Shown piece after piece: positions 1,236-24,300 of a DNA stretch of 64,000 nt; position 1 is the stretch's first letter, and every line of letters starts with the position of its first letter. A program made the position numbers and the translations under genes. The DNA is from Nitrosophilus alvini. Its GTDB lineage: Bacteria > Campylobacterota > Campylobacteria > Campylobacterales > Nitratiruptoraceae. The notes beneath the pieces are model-generated. The model saw nothing but the letters and a program-made list of their open reading frames with translations, was not told the origin of the DNA and did no database searches. Location of the stretch: contig NZ_AP022847.1 in the NCBI RefSeq assembly GCF_015100395.1, positions 1,118,501 to 1,182,500 of the forward strand, read 5' to 3'.

Positions 1236-1667
1236 TCAGGCAAAAAGAATTTTATGTTCTATCATGGCACACATATTCTGCACGGCTTCTATACCGGCAT
1301 TTTTAGCTTTTGCGGCAGCTTCATTGTTCACTATCTCTTTTTGCATCCAGACAACTTTTACATCACCTCTTTTGATTGCGCTTTCCACTATTGCCGTAAC
1401 GGCTTCGGATTTTCGGAAAATATCTATCATATCGATACGCTCTGGAATCTCTTCAAGAGATCGGTAAACTTTTTCTCCCAAAATCTCACCGCCTTTTGGA
1501 TATACGGGAATTATTTTATATCCTTGCTCCTGCAGGTATTTCGCAACTCTGTGGCTATCTTTTAGAGGATTTGGGGACAATCCTACAACAGCAATAGTTT
1601 CAACATCTTCAAATATCTTTTTGATAGTTTTTTTATCTGCATTTATACTCGGAATTTCACATTCCAT
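1236..1667 (-). CDS. CoA-binding domain protein (YccU-like)
   Basis: A small cytosolic Rossmann-fold protein of 143 residues of the CoA_binding_2/YccU type, related to the N-terminal CoA-binding domain of succinyl-CoA synthetase alpha. The nucleotide-binding turn is visible as TIAVVGLSPNPLKDSHRVA near the N-terminus, followed by alternating strands ending in VVWMQKEIVNNEAA. The family has no assigned reaction, so I give none. An ATG start at 1667 is supported by AGAAGGA about seven bases upstream; the TTG two codons earlier is less likely. It lies 10 bases ahead of ilvA on the same strand. Family assignment is solid, function is open. Confidence 0.85.
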   Translation of the reverse strand: MECEIPSINADKKTIKKIFEDVETIAVVGLSPNPLKDSHRVAKYLQEQGYKIIPVYPKGGEILGEKVYRSLEEIPERIDMIDIFRKSEAVTAIVESAIKRGDVKVVWMQKEIVNNEAAAKAKNAGIEAVQNMCAMIEHKILFA

Positions 1668-1764
1668 ATACAATCCTTCTTAAATGCTTTATATAAAATT
1701 GGGTAAGTATATCAAATATAGCGTAAAGAGCCAATTAAGGTAGAAAGGAATATAATATTTTATT

Positions 1765-3258
1765 ATGATTACTTATAACAGAAGAAGAGTCGAAAGTGAA
1801 ATAAAAGAGCTCTTCAAAAACAGATTCGCCATACTTATTATTCTGATAATTGCTATATTTTTTTTCATATACACTTTTATATACGGTATAAAAAAACAGG
1901 AAGTTGAACGTATTCTTTCAAAAGAACTGAGAAGCGAAAAAGAGAAAATCACACTTCAGATAAATACTCTGTATGCCAGTACACGAATGCTTTATGAGCT
2001 TATGCTGGACAAAGAAATAAAAAAAATACTTTCAAAAGCTGAAACGGATCCGGTAATCGCAAGAACTCTTCTATATAAAAAATTGTTGAAAAATTACAAA
2101 ATTTTAAAAAAATACGGTTTAAGACAACTCCATTTTCATACTCCGGACGGCAGATCTTTTTTGAGATTTCACAAACCTCAAAAATATGGAGACAATCTTT
2201 ATGATTTCAGATATTCTGTCAATTATGTAATGAAAAATAAAAAGCCTGTTTATGGATTTGAGATAGGAAGATATCATGGCGGATTTAGGAATATTTTTCC
2301 TATATTCTCGGAATCAAAAAAATATCTCGGAAATATGGAAATATCTTTTTCCTTTGAAATAATAAGAAAAAATCTGGAAAAACCGCTCAATTACTATTTT
2401 ATGATACTGGATAAAAACATTGTAATGCAAACGGTGCCAAAAAGCGAATTTTATCACTACAGAATATGCTACCTCAATCCCAATTTTCTGATAGAAGAGA
2501 CAAACAGCGAAAAATGCAAAATTATAAAAAAACTGGGGCTTAGACTGGAAAATCCGGATTATTTGGAAAAGGCCATCTATAAAGAAAAAAACGGCAAAGA
2601 CTATATTATCTCATTTATACCTATCGAATCGATAAGCGGTGCAAAAAACGGCTATATAGTAAATATAAAACTTGACAATAAAGAAATTATCAAAAATGAA
2701 GAAAATTTCAAAAGAACAACTTATCTGCTTATTCTTCTGACAACCATTACAATCCTGGTGCTTTTTATAGTAAAGAAACTTTTAAACGTACGCTCACAGG
2801 CACATATTGACGAATTGACACAGACTTTTAACAGAAGAGGCTGCCAAAATGAAATAAAAAAATTCATAAACAGCGGTAAAAACAGTCTGATACTCTTTGA
2901 CATAGACAACTTTAAAACAATCAATGACAGATTTGGCCATCAAACAGGTGATGAAGTATTGAAAAAAATAGCTGAAATCGTCAAAAGATATATTCGTAAA
3001 GATGACATACTATGCAGATTCGGAGGAGAAGAGTTTCTTGTTTTTCTCCCCGAAACCTCTTTTGAAGACAGTGTTGTCATAGCTGAAAAACTTAGAAGCG
3101 TTATAGAAAACAGCCATTTTGGAAAAGCGGGCAAAGTAACTGCCAGCTTTGGCATATCTGCTCAAAAAAATAAAGAGAGCCTGGAAAAACTCTTTATGGT
3201 TGCAGATAAAAAACTGTATGAAGCAAAAAAGGCGGGGAAAAACAGAGTTGTTTACTAA
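1765..3258 (+). CDS. Membrane diguanylate cyclase with periplasmic sensor domain
   Basis: Predicted to make c-di-GMP from two GTP. Order: short cytoplasmic tail, membrane segment about 21-40, a periplasmic sensor of some 270 residues, second membrane segment about 318-337, then a GGDEF domain to the end. The catalytic motif is intact (GGEEF, residues 420-424), and an inhibitory I-site RKDD lies five residues before it, implying product feedback. The sensor contains LHFHTPDGRSFLRFHKP and a later GFEIGRYHGGFRN stretch, which resembles double-Cache ligand-binding domains; this is pattern recognition, and the ligand is unknown. It is convergent with feoB, with a single base between the stops. Confidence 0.88.
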   Translation: MITYNRRRVESEIKELFKNRFAILIILIIAIFFFIYTFIYGIKKQEVERILSKELRSEKEKITLQINTLYASTRMLYELMLDKEIKKILSKAETDPVIARTLLYKKLLKNYKILKKYGLRQLHFHTPDGRSFLRFHKPQKYGDNLYDFRYSVNYVMKNKKPVYGFEIGRYHGGFRNIFPIFSESKKYLGNMEISFSFEIIRKNLEKPLNYYFMILDKNIVMQTVPKSEFYHYRICYLNPNFLIEETNSEKCKIIKKLGLRLENPDYLEKAIYKEKNGKDYIISFIPIESISGAKNGYIVNIKLDNKEIIKNEENFKRTTYLLILLTTITILVLFIVKKLLNVRSQAHIDELTQTFNRRGCQNEIKKFINSGKNSLILFDIDNFKTINDRFGHQTGDEVLKKIAEIVKRYIRKDDILCRFGGEEFLVFLPETSFEDSVVIAEKLRSVIENSHFGKAGKVTASFGISAQKNKESLEKLFMVADKKLYEAKKAGKNRVVY

Positions 3259-3259
3259 G

Positions 3260-5359
3260 TTACAACCCTGCCGCTTTTAAAATGTTATATACCGCAAACG
3301 CCATGAGCCATGCAAGGACATTTGGATATATCGTATAAAAACTTCTCCACGCCCATTGCGGTACTTCCGCATAAAACGTACTCATAGCCGCTACACACGG
3401 CGAATAGATCATTATGATGACTATAAGTGCAACCGCCGTTTTAATATCGATATTTTCTCTAAGCTTTGAGATGAGTGTAGAACTTGTCTCATCCGCTTCG
3501 CCTACGGCGTACAGAGTCGCAAGAGTGGATACAACTACCTCTTTTGCAGCTAGTCCGCTTATAGTGGCAACCGACATTCTCCAATCAAATCCGATAGGTT
3601 CGAAAACAGGCTCTATGGCTTTTCCGATTTGGCCCAAATAGCTGTTTTCCAGAAGCTTTGCTGCAAGTTCATTTTGTAACTGAACTTTTTGTTCTTCAGT
3701 ACCGGCATGTTCAATTTTTTCTTCATATTGATTTACTATAGTTTCATTTACAGGATAAGAGCTCAAAAACCAGATTATCATAGCTGCACCGGCTATAAAA
3801 GTACCTGCTTTTTTCAAAAATAGTTTGGTTTTGATCCATAACTCCATAGCCAGAGACTTTACAGAGGGAAATCTATACGGCGGCATCTCCATAACAAACG
3901 GTTCAGGTTCTCCCTTGAAAAGTACCATTCTTAGTATTTTGGCAACTATAAGGCCCAATATCGCTCCCCCTATATATATTGCAAAAAGTACGTTTCCGGC
4001 ATTTTGAGTAGGGAAAAAAGCCGCAATCAGCAGTACATAGACAGGAAGTCTCGCATTACAGTTCATAAATCCGAGAACAAGCATCGTTATGAGTCTGTCT
4101 TTAGGATTTTTGAGCGTCCTTGCCGCCATATATGCGGGAACGGTACATCCAAAGCCACTAACAAGAGGAATAAACGCTTTTCCTTGCAATCCGAACTTTT
4201 TCAAAAAACCGTCAAGCAAAAACGCTGCTCTTGCCATATAACCTGTTTGTTCAAGTAGATTTATACCCAAAAAAAGTATAAGAATATTGGGCAAAAACAT
4301 AATAACCGCACTTACTGCAGGTATTATCCCATCCGTAATGACGGAATTTAGAGCTCCCTGGGGCAATATACCTTTAAGCCAGAAAGCAAAATTGGTAAAC
4401 GCCTCGTCTATATATTCCATAGGAATCGAACCCACTTCGAAAGTTACCTGAAATAGTCCCCACATAAAAAAAAGAAATATCGGCAGTCCCAAAACCGGAT
4501 GGATGAGAAATTTATCTATCTTGTCGGTAATGCTCTCTTTAGAGACACTTTTAAGTACCTGCATAACGATACTCTTTGCAAGTGCGTTTCTCTCATACGC
4601 AAGTACATCCGCAACACTCTCTTCATCAAATTCGATTTTAAGTTTTTTGTAACTCTCTCCTAACGCTTCATGAAACTCTATGAAAATCGGAAGGTCGTGA
4701 ATTATTTTGTAAACATCTTCATCTTTCTCCAAAAGCCTTATGATATAAAATCTGGCTAAATCTTTGTCATTGAAGTGAGGAGATTTTAAAAGAATATGTG
4801 AAAGTTTTTCAATCTCTTCCTCGATTTTCTCATCATAGTATACTTTCGGTTTGAATCTAGATGTATTGTAAACTTCAATGATTTTGTCTACTATTTCATC
4901 AACCCCTCGTTGCTCTTTTGCAGAAGTTAGAATCACAGGAATACCCAAAAGCTTCGAAAGCTTCTCTGCATCAACACTTCCGCCTCTGCTTTCAATTTCG
5001 TCGATCATATTGACGACGAGTATAGTCTTTTTGCGCATATCCAGAAGTTGAAGAGTAAAAATCAGATTTCTTTGCAGAGTATTTGCATCAACTACATTTA
5101 TCAACAGATCATACTCTTCATTCATCAGATAGTTTTTCGTTACATGTTCCTCGGGAGTATAGGCATTCAAAGAGTAGATCCCAGGTAAATCGACAATATC
5201 TATATCATATTGATCTTTTTTTATGAAAACCTCTTTTTTTTCTACTGTAACGCCTGCAAAATTTCCAACATGAAGCCTTGCACCGCTTATAGAATTTATG
5301 ATAGACGATTTACCCACATTGGGCTGACCCACCATAGCTACTTTTATCTTTCGCATCAT
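3260..5359 (-). CDS. feoB: Ferrous iron transport protein B
   Basis: Inner-membrane Fe(II) importer with an N-terminal G-protein domain. G motifs are visible: GQPNVGKSS (residues 11-19), DLPG, NMID and SAKEQRG. A helical insert follows, then two Gate-type membrane regions in the C-terminal half, with the cysteine-containing YSPCVAAM near the end. At 699 residues it is close to usual FeoB length. The first ATG overlaps the feoA stop as ATGA, and a second ATG follows directly; either could be used behind GAGGAT. It is the last gene of the porin-feoA-feoB operon, whose leader carries a Fur-box-like site. Confidence 0.96.
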   Translation of the reverse strand: MMRKIKVAMVGQPNVGKSSIINSISGARLHVGNFAGVTVEKKEVFIKKDQYDIDIVDLPGIYSLNAYTPEEHVTKNYLMNEEYDLLINVVDANTLQRNLIFTLQLLDMRKKTILVVNMIDEIESRGGSVDAEKLSKLLGIPVILTSAKEQRGVDEIVDKIIEVYNTSRFKPKVYYDEKIEEEIEKLSHILLKSPHFNDKDLARFYIIRLLEKDEDVYKIIHDLPIFIEFHEALGESYKKLKIEFDEESVADVLAYERNALAKSIVMQVLKSVSKESITDKIDKFLIHPVLGLPIFLFFMWGLFQVTFEVGSIPMEYIDEAFTNFAFWLKGILPQGALNSVITDGIIPAVSAVIMFLPNILILFLGINLLEQTGYMARAAFLLDGFLKKFGLQGKAFIPLVSGFGCTVPAYMAARTLKNPKDRLITMLVLGFMNCNARLPVYVLLIAAFFPTQNAGNVLFAIYIGGAILGLIVAKILRMVLFKGEPEPFVMEMPPYRFPSVKSLAMELWIKTKLFLKKAGTFIAGAAMIIWFLSSYPVNETIVNQYEEKIEHAGTEEQKVQLQNELAAKLLENSYLGQIGKAIEPVFEPIGFDWRMSVATISGLAAKEVVVSTLATLYAVGEADETSSTLISKLRENIDIKTAVALIVIIMIYSPCVAAMSTFYAEVPQWAWRSFYTIYPNVLAWLMAFAVYNILKAAGL

Positions 5360-5583
5360 TTATCCTCTAATAATATGGAGTCAGCTTCCTCACGCCTCAA
5401 AGCTACTCGCGTATTGTCAACCTCTACTTCCCAAGTCTGTTTTTTTAATGTATGATCAAGAAGTTTTATCACATTGCCTTTTGCAATTCCCATAGCTATT
5501 AATCTACTTTTTACAGGTTCTAAAGCAGTAATTTTTTTTATAACAGCACTTTCTCCTATTTTCATTTCAGACACTTTTTTCAA
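5356..5583 (-). CDS. feoA: Ferrous iron transport protein A
   Basis: A 75-residue cytosolic SH3-like partner of FeoB that supports Fe(II) uptake. The family pattern is seen in IGESAVIKKI, the MGIAKGNVIKLL turn, and the final VALRREEADSILL strand that usually carries the residues conserved in FeoA. It starts 9 bases after the porin stop and overlaps feoB by four bases, so it should be translated from the same Fur-controlled message. Length and content are normal for the family. Confidence 0.93.
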   Translation of the reverse strand: MKKVSEMKIGESAVIKKITALEPVKSRLIAMGIAKGNVIKLLDHTLKKQTWEVEVDNTRVALRREEADSILLEDK

Positions 5584-5592
5584 TTTCCGCTC

Positions 5593-6810
5593 CTAAAATC
5601 TGTATTTTACTAACATTCTGAATTGATTATAATCCGTATCGCTTTGTGTTTTGTCGTCTACTGCTGCAAAAGCCGATTCTATTTCTATGTTTTCAGTCAG
5701 ATTCGCAACTATATATGCATCTGTTTCCGCAGTATGATATACTGAGTTATCGCCGGCCTTGAACTCTCCGCGATAAAATCCAACAGAAATATTATCATAA
5801 ACTTCATACTCTCCTCCAAAGGTATATGCTTCGGCATTTTCATCGGCGACCGCATCAATGGTTTGATCTTCCATGGAGGTGAAAAACGGACCGCCTCCAA
5901 AACTGAACATAGAAGAGGAAGAGCCAAACTCTCTGTTATAAGCAATACCGAGTCTCAGCCCTATGCTCTCAAATGATATTTCTGCCGCAGCACCCACTGT
6001 TTTGGTATCTATCTCTCCTGCCAGCCTCTCACCCGTTGAAAGTGCCCTGTCAAGTTGCATAGATATGGAGATATCGGTATCGTAAGCAATCATTTTGTTG
6101 TAAGTAGCTTCCATATATACTATATTCGCCACATTATCTATATTGTAAAACCAGATCTGCATAGGAAGATAGTAAAGGCCCGAATATTCGGCACCAAGTA
6201 TACTTATCGCCGTATTACCCTTTTCCACTCCCAAAACATCGGAAATTTTCACAAATCTTTTTGCATCCGTACCGTTTTCCCATCCTGCCATTTTGTCTAT
6301 ATATATCATAAAAATATCGAAATTCTCAAAAGAACTGTTTTTCAAAAGAGCCCCTTCGAAAAGATTTGGAACCATTCTGATATCGTCACTGTCAGCATGA
6401 GGCGTATCAATTATTTGTCTTCCTACTTTTAAAAACGTATTTTTTAATGTGTATTGAATATAAGCTTCACCTAACATCGCGAAAGATTTCTTGTTCGAAT
6501 CGAAGAAATCTCCGTTTTTGTTTTTCTCATTTAAACCGAAATCCTGAACGGTATAAAATGCAGCACCTGCCTGTAAACCGTTCAAAGCAAAAGTTTTTAT
6601 ATGCAGATGCCCGCCCAAAGCGAAAGCTTTTGAATCTATTTCATTTTTTGCATCAAAGTTTATGTATCCGGCTCTTATCTCGCCGTTTAGATGCTGCATT
6701 AAATCAACTTCAGAGAGCTTTTTTCTGACGCTTTCAAACTCTCCGAAAGAGAGCACGTCAGACCAAAGCATCGAAACTAAACAGAAAAATATGTAAAAAC
6801 CTTTTTTCAC
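5593..6810 (-). CDS. Outer-membrane porin, OprD-like, first gene of the feoAB operon
   Basis: A 405-residue beta-barrel protein with an N-terminal signal peptide (hydrophobic to about residue 20), alternating amphipathic strands with many aromatic and glycine residues, and the C-terminal phenylalanine (MLVKYRF) typical of outer-membrane proteins. It resembles the OprD/major porin family of Campylobacterota; the substrate cannot be read from sequence. Translation starts at GTG 6810 behind AAAGGAGAAG. The Fur-box-like palindrome at 6875-6889 lies 65 bases upstream, and feoA follows within 10 bases, so the porin is probably iron-repressed and may admit Fe(II) or an iron chelate to the periplasm for FeoB. 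That role is inference. Confidence 0.85.
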   Translation of the reverse strand: MKKGFYIFFCLVSMLWSDVLSFGEFESVRKKLSEVDLMQHLNGEIRAGYINFDAKNEIDSKAFALGGHLHIKTFALNGLQAGAAFYTVQDFGLNEKNKNGDFFDSNKKSFAMLGEAYIQYTLKNTFLKVGRQIIDTPHADSDDIRMVPNLFEGALLKNSSFENFDIFMIYIDKMAGWENGTDAKRFVKISDVLGVEKGNTAISILGAEYSGLYYLPMQIWFYNIDNVANIVYMEATYNKMIAYDTDISISMQLDRALSTGERLAGEIDTKTVGAAAEISFESIGLRLGIAYNREFGSSSSMFSFGGGPFFTSMEDQTIDAVADENAEAYTFGGEYEVYDNISVGFYRGEFKAGDNSVYHTAETDAYIVANLTENIEIESAFAAVDDKTQSDTDYNQFRMLVKYRF

Positions 6811-20732: not shown

Positions 20733-21587
20733 TTGAAAAAAAAGATTAAAACAGCTATAAAGATCATTTTTTCTATAGGATTGCTCTTTTTCGTTCTGTC
20801 TAAAATCGATACGGACAGGCTTTTTGCGATCCTCAAAGAGACCGATCCTATCTGGCTCTTTTGGGCCTTTGTAGCTTTCAATCTCTCAAAAATAGTAAGT
20901 TCGGTCAGACTCAACTACTATTTCAAAGATATAGGCATAAATCTATCCGAAAAAGCCAATCTCATACTCTACTACGTAGGAATGTATCTGAACCTCTTTC
21001 TTCCGGGAGGTATAGGAGGAGACGGGTATAAGATATATCTGCTTGCAAAGAGATATAACACAAAAGTCTCCTCTTTGATAAATGCTACTCTTCTGGACCG
21101 CATAAGCGGTCTGGCGGCTCTGGTATTTTTGGCAGCGATACTTTTTGCTTTCAGCTCATACACAGATATCTATCCCGGGTTAGGTATACTCTCCATCATC
21201 GGGGCGGCTCTGGTCTATCCTGTTTTTCTCTATCTTCATAAAAAGCTTTTCAAAAACTTCTCCACCTATATAAAAGAGACCACACTTCTCGGCCTTGCCG
21301 TGCAGCTTTTGCAGCTGTCAAGCGCATATTTCATCATACTGTCGCTGCCAAACGACGTAAACAATATAGATTTTCTGACTCTTTTTCTCATCTCTTCCGT
21401 TGTAGCCGTTCTGCCGCTTACCATAGGCGGAGTCGGAGCAAGAGAACTGACTTTTCTATACGGTTTGAAACTTATAGGAGAGGATCCGGCAACAGGTATC
21501 GCTTTTTCATTTATATTTTTTCTGATCACCCTCGTATCATCTGCAATAGGACTGCTTTTTGTGCACAGGCCTTTGAGAGAAGTTTAG
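20733..21587 (+). CDS. Flippase-like integral membrane protein (LPG synthase TM / AglD family)
   Basis: A 284-residue polytopic protein of the UPF0104/YbhN family, related to the membrane half of lysylphosphatidylglycerol synthase. Typical features are FLPGGIGGDGYKIYLL in the first third and VLPLTIGGVGARELTFLYG in the last, between hydrophobic helices. Family members are proposed lipid or lipid-linked sugar translocators. The only plausible start is TTG at 20733, with GGAAAA about eight bases upstream; the next ATG is some 80 codons in. It follows the GT2 gene on the same strand but is separated by the composite repeat. Confidence 0.8.
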   Translation: MKKKIKTAIKIIFSIGLLFFVLSKIDTDRLFAILKETDPIWLFWAFVAFNLSKIVSSVRLNYYFKDIGINLSEKANLILYYVGMYLNLFLPGGIGGDGYKIYLLAKRYNTKVSSLINATLLDRISGLAALVFLAAILFAFSSYTDIYPGLGILSIIGAALVYPVFLYLHKKLFKNFSTYIKETTLLGLAVQLLQLSSAYFIILSLPNDVNNIDFLTLFLISSVVAVLPLTIGGVGARELTFLYGLKLIGEDPATGIAFSFIFFLITLVSSAIGLLFVHRPLREV

Positions 21588-22669
21588 GAAGATACCATTT
21601 TTCCATTTTCCCAGACAGACTCAAAAGATTTATGAAGCTCTTTTCCCAGTTCGGTATTTAGATTCAAGACGCTGAACGGAGCTTTTGTGAGTCTTTTCGC
21701 TCTTCCGTTTTCATCCAAAGTGATAGGAGAATAAACAACTGCATCATCAACGATAAAAGATGTTACTGTTCGATGAATATTATAAATTCTAATATGATTT
21801 TCCGGATCTAGTCCAACATTTTCCAGCACTTCTTTCGCTCTTTTAATACAGATTTCAATCTGACTTTTCAGATCGTCATCCTGATGTGCGGCTCTCAGTA
21901 TATGTAAAGGAGCATTTGGATTTAAAAAAAGAACTCTAAAATCAAAACCGTTATCAACACGCTCTTTCAGAGTCTTAAAAAAATCACGATGTTCCTTGTC
22001 GAAAAGTTTTCTGTTTTTTCTACCAAATATAAGCAATCTGTTTTGAACTACATTGGTCAAAACCGTATATAAAGAGTGACTTTCAAACCCACTTGAAAAA
22101 TAGACCTGACTTCCTATGAGAGGCTCCGGTAGTCCATGTCGAGCAAACGAATTTATAACTCGCGAGATCTGATCATTAGATCCTGCTATTTCTATTTTCG
22201 ATATCTCTGAAATCTTTTCCTCAAATTCAGGCCAAAAAGCTTCAAACGCCTCTTCAAGATATGGTGTTTTCCATTCACCAAGCTCAGCATCTAAAGTTTT
22301 AACAAGTTTGAAAACATCCTCTTTAGTCAAAACGGTAGCCTGAAATTCTCGCAAAGGACCATCAAGTTCTGAAGGAGAAATCCCCAGAAGCAGTGGGCAC
22401 ACTTTCGAACTTCCGACCGCCTTGGAGAGAGCGCCTGCTTCAAAAAGAAGCCAGGGAGCCTTGTAGTTCTCTGGAGTTACACAAATTATACCTATATTGT
22501 GACTATTTAGATTTTCTCCTATTTCAATAAACCATCGCTGACCTTTTTCTATATCGCTGTCTGACATCCATGGTTTTGCCTTTTGGATAACTTTTCTCAG
22601 CCACACATACAAAAAACTCGCCATCTCCCTACTTCTCTTACCCGACCAACTCAGAAAAATATTTGCCAT
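21584..22669 (-). CDS. TIR-domain protein with uncharacterised C-terminal domain
   Basis: Residues 1-145 form a bacterial TIR domain of the TIR_2 type: IFLSWSGKRSREMA, KPWMSDSDIEKGQRW, GIICVTPENYKAPWLLFEAG. Glu77 in FEAGALSK matches the catalytic glutamate of NAD-cleaving TIR domains, so NADase activity is likely. Residues about 180-361 are a separate domain with VLFLNPNAP, then RIYNIHRTVTSFIVDDAVVY, which faintly recalls PLD-like folds without the HKD residues; I do not recognise it firmly. It may be the sensor. The gene is convergent with the flippase-like gene (four-base overlap) and has no partner on its strand. Anti-phage defence is the best guess. Confidence 0.8.
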   Translation of the reverse strand: MANIFLSWSGKRSREMASFLYVWLRKVIQKAKPWMSDSDIEKGQRWFIEIGENLNSHNIGIICVTPENYKAPWLLFEAGALSKAVGSSKVCPLLLGISPSELDGPLREFQATVLTKEDVFKLVKTLDAELGEWKTPYLEEAFEAFWPEFEEKISEISKIEIAGSNDQISRVINSFARHGLPEPLIGSQVYFSSGFESHSLYTVLTNVVQNRLLIFGRKNRKLFDKEHRDFFKTLKERVDNGFDFRVLFLNPNAPLHILRAAHQDDDLKSQIEICIKRAKEVLENVGLDPENHIRIYNIHRTVTSFIVDDAVVYSPITLDENGRAKRLTKAPFSVLNLNTELGKELHKSFESVWENGKMVSS

Positions 22670-23045
22670 TTATTCACTCTTTTTTTATTGCTTTATAAAT
22701 ATCATATTTTTTTATTTTTTATCCCTATTTGTTTCAAATCAAATTATGAAAAAATGGACTAGTATATACTTGCATTTTGTCCTAATTGTTGTTTTTTTAA
22801 TAGTTATTTACTTTTCTATTTGTTAAGTATTGCTTATTAGATAAAAAACAACTCTTATACATATCAAAAAGCATTTCAAAAATCATTTATATTTTAAATA
22901 GAGCTCCAAATTATTTTTTTCTTCGATATTTAATTAGTTTTATTTTTTACGAATTTCTAATTTTTATTATTCATCTTATTATAATGTATCATCTGAAAAT
23001 TAAAAATAAAAGACCAAACACCTTACAATTATTTTTAGAGGTTCA
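22670..23045. other. Very AT-rich gap without a clear gene
   Basis: About 400 bases before the pyrC-like stop hold long T and A runs and no ORF over 30 codons that I can support. It contains the TIR gene promoter region, a 26-codon hydrophobic ORF at 22746-22826 and a TATAAT at 22980-22985 that could serve the short ORF at 23046. I see no inverted repeats or target duplications that would mark an insertion sequence. Confidence 0.7.
22746..22826 (+). CDS. Possible 26-residue hydrophobic peptide
   Basis: ATG to TAA encodes a peptide with a basic start (MKKW), then an uninterrupted hydrophobic stretch (YLHFVLIVVFLIVIYFSI) and a final cysteine, the shape of a single-span membrane peptide. It diverges from the TIR gene, 76 bases from its start. 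No Shine-Dalgarno sequence is visible, and T-rich DNA yields hydrophobic ORFs by chance, so confidence is low. Small type I toxins and small membrane effectors have this form. Confidence 0.2.
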   Translation: MKKWTSIYLHFVLIVVFLIVIYFSIC

Positions 23046-23105
23046 ATGAAAAATTTATTATTTCTTTTGTATTTCTCAATCAAAATATCCGTCTGCCCTC
23101 TTTGA
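23046..23105 (+). pseudogene. Possible 19-residue peptide or truncated secreted-protein start
   Basis: ATG 23046 follows TTTAGAGGTTCA, a good ribosome site, and a TATAAT at 22980-22985. The peptide (MKNLLFLLYFSI then KISVCPL) looks like the start of a signal peptide but stops after entering the 3' end of the convergent pyrC-like gene by 26 bases. It may be a remnant of a secreted-protein gene cut by a deletion, or a real micropeptide; neither is proved. Confidence 0.2.
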
Positions 23106-24300
23106 AAGTGGCTGTAACCTCTCCAAAAAGCTCTTCTTTATAGTACAAAGACTCTTCGTTTTCCACAACTCTTTTTTTATCGGGATCGAAGATGACGATA
23201 TCTGCGCTGCACCCCTCTTCTATAGTTCCGTGGTTCAGTCCAAGGACTTTCGCCGGATTTTTGCAAAGAAGTTTTGTCAAATCACTCATATTCAAAATAC
23301 CGCTTTTTACAAGATATGTATATGCTATCGGCAGATAAAGAGATATGGCATCCACGCCGTAGGCCGCTTCATCAAATGCTATATCTTTTTGAACCATCGA
23401 TTTTGGAGAGTGAAGAGATGTAAGAAAATCGATTTGTCCGTTCTTGAGCATCTGCAAAAGTAACTCTCTGTTCTCTCTATCTCTGAGCGGAGGGTCTATT
23501 TTGGCACAGGTATTGTAGCCTCTGCACGCTTCGTCGCTTTTTACAAGATGGTGGATAGAAACTTCGGCATAAGCTTTGAACCCTCTTTTTTTTGCTTCGT
23601 TTACAAGTTCTACAGACCTGGCAGACGAAAGGCTTTTAAATACCGTCTCTATTCTGTAGCGATTTAGAAACTCTACGATTTTGGCAACTTCTATATTCTC
23701 TTCAAGTTCCGGAATCCCTCCCAGGCCAAGCTCGGATGAGACTTCCCCCTCATGCATCACACCACCGGCTCTCAAAGAACAGTTCTGCGCCCTGCAGTGA
23801 AGAGGAATCTCATACATAACGGCATACTCGAAAACTCTCCTCATCAAAGAAGAATCTATATCTGAACTGGTATAAATTGCAGCAGCACCTTTTTTCAAAA
23901 GTATGGCTATTTCACTGAGCTGCTCGTTTTCTTCGCCTTTTATGGCTGTTATCATCGGTTTTATATCGGATTTACTGTTAAGTTCGTTTTGGGATTTTAC
24001 AAACTCCAAAATTATTTCATCATCTATTTTAGGATTTAAGTGAGGATTTAAAAGTACGGTAGTAACTCCTCCTTTTGCACTGTTTTTCGCAAGTTTGGCC
24101 AAAGAGTCGACGCTTACTCTATCATCGCAGGTTTTGGCATTTAGTTCTACTATACCTGGCAAAACAGAGCATCCTTTTGCATCGTATATCTCATCTGAAC
24201 TAAGATCTGTGCCTATCTTTGCAATTTTGCCGTCTTTTATCTCTATATCTGCTTCTCTTTCGCCTTTTGAATCAACTATAAGAGCATTTTTTATAACCAT
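23080..24300 (-). CDS. Dihydroorotase-like protein, probably catalytically inactive (PyrC-prime/PyrX type)
   Basis: A 406-residue amidohydrolase-fold protein with the dihydroorotase layout: N-terminal beta sandwich, barrel, C-terminal NPAKVLGL and GCSADIVIFDPD. The metal site is broken: the usual PGxxDxHxH reads PGIVELNAK (Asn54 and Lys56 for the two histidines), and the usual catalytic aspartate of the TDHAPH motif is replaced in TSLHSPKS. IHHL and KIDPPLR remain. Inactive dihydroorotase homologues are known to scaffold aspartate transcarbamoylase in other bacteria, so a structural role in pyrimidine synthesis fits. No pyrB is in the window. It is divergent from a cytochrome c gene. Confidence 0.83.
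   Translation of the reverse strand: MVIKNALIVDSKGEREADIEIKDGKIAKIGTDLSSDEIYDAKGCSVLPGIVELNAKTCDDRVSVDSLAKLAKNSAKGGVTTVLLNPHLNPKIDDEIILEFVKSQNELNSKSDIKPMITAIKGEENEQLSEIAILLKKGAAAIYTSSDIDSSLMRRVFEYAVMYEIPLHCRAQNCSLRAGGVMHEGEVSSELGLGGIPELEENIEVAKIVEFLNRYRIETVFKSLSSARSVELVNEAKKRGFKAYAEVSIHHLVKSDEACRGYNTCAKIDPPLRDRENRELLLQMLKNGQIDFLTSLHSPKSMVQKDIAFDEAAYGVDAISLYLPIAYTYLVKSGILNMSDLTKLLCKNPAKVLGLNHGTIEEGCSADIVIFDPDKKRVVENEESLYYKEELFGEVTATFKEGRRIF

Follow-up and report, generated by a model that had tools for sequence, protein, structure and literature searches.

The TIR-pPLD gene of Nitrosophilus alvini, found in a 64,000-nucleotide stretch of the genome (hereafter the window), is likely a defence gene. 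Our best explanation is that it is a horizontally acquired, self-contained anti-phage gene in which a TIR domain would act as the NAD-cleaving effector and an inactive PLD domain as the sensor, leading to abortive infection; we consider this explanation fairly probable as a whole. The product carries an N-terminal TIR domain followed by a C-terminal part of ~195 residues. Full-length relatives were found in a Desulfobacteraceae MAG (L001, 65% identity), a Holophagales MAG (L002, 46%), and an IMG/VR contig (L006, 49%). The two-domain ORF did not arise by chance, since four unrelated settings each contain both halves, with identities of 42-69% per half. The features are listed in Table 1.

Table 1. 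Features of the TIR-pPLD locus in the window and of the integron carrying its homologue in L001.
Feature	Position	Strand	Remarks
TIR + PLD-like gene (TIR-pPLD)	22669..21584	minus	intact ORF, 361 aa; L001, L002, and L006 align over full length
TIR domain + conserved extension, residues 3-159	22193..22663	minus	PF13676, PDLC03016, phrog_13899; WxxxE = residues 73-77
PLD-fold C-terminal domain (predicted), residues 165-361, without HxKx4D	21587..22177	minus	AlphaFold2 (pLDDT 82), Foldseek, motif check
Convergent lysylphosphatidylglycerol-synthase-like membrane protein gene	20733-21587	+	stop codon overlaps TIR-pPLD stop
Amidohydrolase (dihydroorotase-like) gene	23080-24300	-	ends 410 bp from TIR-pPLD start
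AT-rich upstream region	22670..23079		410 bp, 18.5% GC vs 37.3% in the window
Hydrophobic ORF, 26 aa, MKKWTSIYLHFVLIVVFLIVIYFSIC	22747-22827	+	readable from sequence; divergent from TIR-pPLD
1.5-kb insert between two conserved convergent genes	21588..23079		slot lengths in 15 relatives
L001 integrase (tyrosine recombinase, long internal insert as in integron integrases)	1292-2308	-	typed by eye
L001 core sites, first cassette	2424 and 3556		GTTCGAC (2424) pairs with GTCGAAC (3556)
L001 first attC-like hairpin, 71 bases	3556-3626		ends in GTTGGGC (3620)
L001 second attC	5838-5917		begins with GCCCAAC (5838), pairing with GTTGGGC (3620)

The preliminary description of this DNA had claimed an intact TIR domain with a catalytic-type glutamate (Glu77), and this was confirmed. 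TIR_2 (PF13676) matched residues 4-115 (6.7e-7, 30.3 bits vs the gathering score of 28), a score that the L002 and L006 homologues likewise pass. Glu77 lies within W73-LLF-E77, of which W73 and E77 are invariant in the alignment of the four full-length members. The full-length structure model was weak across the TIR part (pLDDT 35-60). From the TIR domain and its glutamate we infer that TIR-pPLD is a probable NADase.

The TIR half was matched by phrog_13899 in PHROGs (4.4e-59) and by TIR-TM PDLC03016 in PADLOC (2e-59, residues 3-163, profile positions 2-164 of 293). TIR-TM is one of three PADLOC models, with 2TM-TIR and 1TM-TIR, for a 2TM-1TM-TIR defence system reportedly from the work of Rousset et al. 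in 2022. Its TIR subfamily is the closest one for the TIR half of TIR-pPLD and is phage-borne: in Escherichia phage P2_AC1, genes for 2TM-TIR (6.9e-58) and 1TM-TIR (2.7e-75) precede the TIR gene and complete the three-gene set. Phage mEp390 and three IMG/VR contigs (L007, L008, and L009, with three different C-termini) carry the TIR half with other C-termini, which indicates that the subfamily moves with phages and exchanges its C-termini. TIR-pPLD differs from the 2TM-1TM-TIR system in that it has a soluble PLD-like fold instead of the membrane part, the profile match ending before that part is reached, and in that it is a single gene without a 1TM or 2TM partner. The PDLC03016 match and the complete set in P2_AC1 could also fit a divergent variant of the system, with a PLD-like domain in place of the membrane part and membrane partners encoded elsewhere. 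Such a variant is highly improbable: the C-terminal part is not a membrane domain, the neighbourhoods of the relatives hold no such genes, and no 2TM-TIR homologue was found in the genome in a search with the 2TM-TIR model.

The C-terminal domain had been left unassigned, and residues 165-361 indeed gave no match at threshold in Pfam, NCBIfam, or PHROGs; a profile search of PDB sequences also gave no match. Structure prediction and fold search now assign it a fold. The AlphaFold2 model of the domain alone (four input sequences) reached a pLDDT of 81.7 and a pTM of 0.82. In the Foldseek search against the PDB, practically all of the 50 matches listed belong to the PLD superfamily (best E 4.4e-5, probability 0.99-1.0, with moderate TM-scores of 0.4-0.5), including TrmBL2, PLD3, phosphatidylserine synthase (PssA), FAM83, MITD1, Zucchini, poxvirus F13, and NucT. 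The full-length model gave the PLD superfamily too, and the same trend was seen against a viral structure library. We concluded that, by its predicted fold, the C-terminal domain is a member of the PLD superfamily. The assignment rests on structure and not on sequence, since comparing its profile with that of the NucT-like PLD protein of this genome produced no real alignment.

TIR-pPLD shares the fold with TrmBL2, FAM83 DUF1669, NucT, and PLD3 at a Foldseek E of ~1e-4, but differs from them in the catalytic motif and has ~10-15% identity to them. None of the four full-length members has HxKx4D, and HxK occurs in none of the five sequences checked. The strand at the expected HKD position reads RTVTSFIVDD, RTMVCMIVDD, RTMNLIIIDD, and RSVTSIVVDD across members; the NucT-like protein of the host genome keeps the motif as HMKLAIID (H-M-K-L-A-I-I-D). 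Judged by the hairpin and the closing helix, this strand would correspond to the HKD strand. The missing motif suggests a sensor or binding module, not an active phospholipase. Non-catalytic PLD-fold domains serve as regulators or binding modules in the TrmB family and FAM83 (the PLD assignment of TrmB comes from the Foldseek search here). Kept in all full-length relatives, and with a PLD fold that lacks the catalytic motif, the domain is, on structural grounds, a better supported candidate for the sensor role proposed for it earlier.

Four charged stretches of the domain are invariant (FGRKNRK, FDKEH, AHxDDD, and HxR), with the invariant residues R217, K218, R220, K221, D224, K225, E226, H227, H262, D264-D266, H292, R294, Y296, and R300. 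These residues likely mark a binding site and would offer a concrete place to seek a ligand. Invariant charged residues in such unusual number, including FGRKNRK-FDKEH and AHxDDD, might instead belong to an enzyme with a rewired PLD site (H227, H262, D264-D266, H292, and R294), the TIR domain being a regulator or a second activity. We regard an enzyme of this kind as distinctly unlikely: HxK and HxKx4D are missing in all members, the TIR domain retains its catalytic-type glutamate, and PLD folds without catalysis have the regulatory and binding roles cited above.

The best Pfam match of the C-terminal domain was DUF5919 (PF19319), at 0.067 and 13.4 bits, below the gathering score of 23.5; a remote relative, L075, matched DUF5919 at 9.8e-4 and 19.4 bits. 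DUF5919 is of unknown function and is found mostly alongside helix-turn-helix domains. In L075 (1426-2545) the DUF5919-like domain follows, in a different frame, an ORF that matches nucleoside deoxyribosyltransferase (1.7e-4) and, weakly, CAP12/Pycsar TIR. Either a frame break or an overlap of two genes may explain this arrangement, which hints that the C-terminal domain is a module common to several nucleotide-cleaving effectors. Tentatively, a PLD fold devoid of catalysis may have been turned into an infection sensor and shuffled among NAD- or nucleotide-cleaving effectors (TIR; the deoxyribosyltransferase/TIR-like ORF of L075), with integrons and phages as the vehicles of the resulting one-gene defence. 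Such a new sensor class is possible, but falls short of probable.

TIR-pPLD looks mobile between unrelated bacteria and phages. The L001 homologue forms the first cassette in an integron, of which the integrase gene, the matching core sites, and attC are all present. The second cassette carries a PARIS-like gene pair, whose products are an AriA-like ATPase (1.8e-37) and a protein weakly similar to AriB (0.0011). That integron cassettes serve as a reservoir of small defence systems is well established (PMC12409362). In L006 the gene has no companion and runs opposite to the large ORFs on either side, which are tail-gene-like by eye; the viral label of this contig rests on IMG/VR, since the neighbours had no significant Pfam match and one weak PHROGs match of unknown function. 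The defence context depends on two of the only four full-length members found (those in the L001 integron and the L006 viral contig). A profile search of viral contigs and three phylum samples gave no further full-length relative, only the remote L075 and L014 (the latter, a weak match containing stops, was left out), and the plasmid and phage collections held the TIR half only, with no C-terminal domain. The L001 integron spans 1292-5917 for its first two cassettes; a Fic protein and a PDC-S01 candidate gene lie further on.

No neighbour gene is shared among the four loci, beyond TIR-pPLD itself and antisense shadows. In the window the genes flanking TIR-pPLD are housekeeping genes, their slot is occupied by TIR-pPLD only, and no other defence genes were found. 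A defence island in the window is not supported; the PARIS-like cassette adjoins the L001 homologue. The defence reading made in the preliminary description was supported for the TIR effector and the candidate C-terminal sensor, and found no support for a hydrophobic partner ORF.

The AT-rich region upstream of TIR-pPLD is the sole inter-ORF gap >300 bp in the window, as had been claimed and was confirmed, and it contains the window's lowest-GC 400-bp stretch. Rfam gave no match for a structured RNA in the gap, the frequency of promoter-like sites did not exceed that in shuffles, and a scan for terminator-like sites gave none. Most simply, the gap combines the TIR-pPLD promoter region with the transcript end of the upstream gene. 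The 26-aa ORF within it is probably the divergent hydrophobic ORF that had been put forward as a second component. The existence of this ORF and the AT-rich gap could be taken to indicate a toxin-antitoxin-like pair, which is extremely improbable: no counterpart was found 5' of any full-length relative (the divergent gene in L001 is the integrase, and the upstream gene in L002 is co-directional and phosphoglycerate-mutase-like), and hydrophobic frames arise readily from T-rich DNA. The ORF was rejected as a partner since it is not conserved beside the relatives. The pairing of TIR with this C-terminal domain does recur elsewhere; the short divergent ORF expected with it does not.

The phage cues that trigger TIR proteins are known for few systems, and no description of a TIR + PLD-like defence protein was found in the open-access literature. 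Bacterial TIR NADases are active after self-association (PMC12847820). SpbK of ICEBs1, a single protein encoded on a mobile element, combines a TIR NADase with a fused sensor; by docking on a phage portal, the sensor brings the TIR domains together (PMC12847820). TIR-pPLD, a predicted NADase, has the same one-protein design, but the SpbK sensor is an N-terminal 4-helix bundle, whereas the candidate sensor of TIR-pPLD is C-terminal and PLD-like. By analogy, we propose the SpbK logic for TIR-pPLD, with a PLD-fold sensor devoid of catalysis. The C-terminal domain would bind either a component of the phage or a ligand linked to infection via its invariant charged residues, and in this bound state the TIR domains would gather into an active assembly; the clustered TIR domains would deplete NAD+, and the NAD+ loss would halt the infected cell before phage release. 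We infer both the ligand sensing by the C-terminal domain and the abortive infection as probable parts of this mechanism. If this is true, a compact one-gene TIR protein with a catalytically dead PLD fold adds a sensor type, and shows defence genes exchanging sensors around a constant killer domain.

The TIR domain could also be a signal producer, making a messenger of the cyclic ADP-ribose type (like ThsB) that activates an effector encoded elsewhere in the genome; several bacterial TIR domains do produce messengers (PMC12847820). This is unlikely for TIR-pPLD: the four unrelated loci have no conserved neighbour, and the occurrence of the gene as a one-gene cassette and in isolation in a viral contig implies self-sufficiency. 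Thoeris ThsB likewise has a bacterial TIR domain in phage defence, but a search of the N. alvini genome for the STALD domain of a ThsA-type partner found none. The lack of both a STALD domain and a 2TM-TIR homologue in the genome speaks against both of the readings with a partner encoded elsewhere.

Horizontal acquisition is consistent with the variation at this site in the host family. The genes flanking TIR-pPLD remain paired in 15 family members, and the slot between them (loci L059-L073) is empty in three, where the flanking 3' ends overlap by 17-18 bp. A ~4.1 kb TelA-like/SPFH-like/zinc-ribbon operon (names by eye) fills it in 7/15; in the other five it measures 1.9 kb (two members) or 0.2-0.7 kb (three members). 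Small ORFs also occur among the slot contents of the family. Since the contents vary among the 15 relatives and are sometimes missing, TIR-pPLD and its upstream region constitute a 1.5-kb insert in a variable slot, at which no recombinase or repeats were seen. A search of 99 further genomes from the family and order found no TIR-pPLD homologue, and the C-terminal domain had no other convincing match in 397 Campylobacterota genomes. As a side observation, the slot of one relative (G001, L063:1279-1983) carries a hydrophobic 117-aa protein together with a divergently encoded one of 87 aa.
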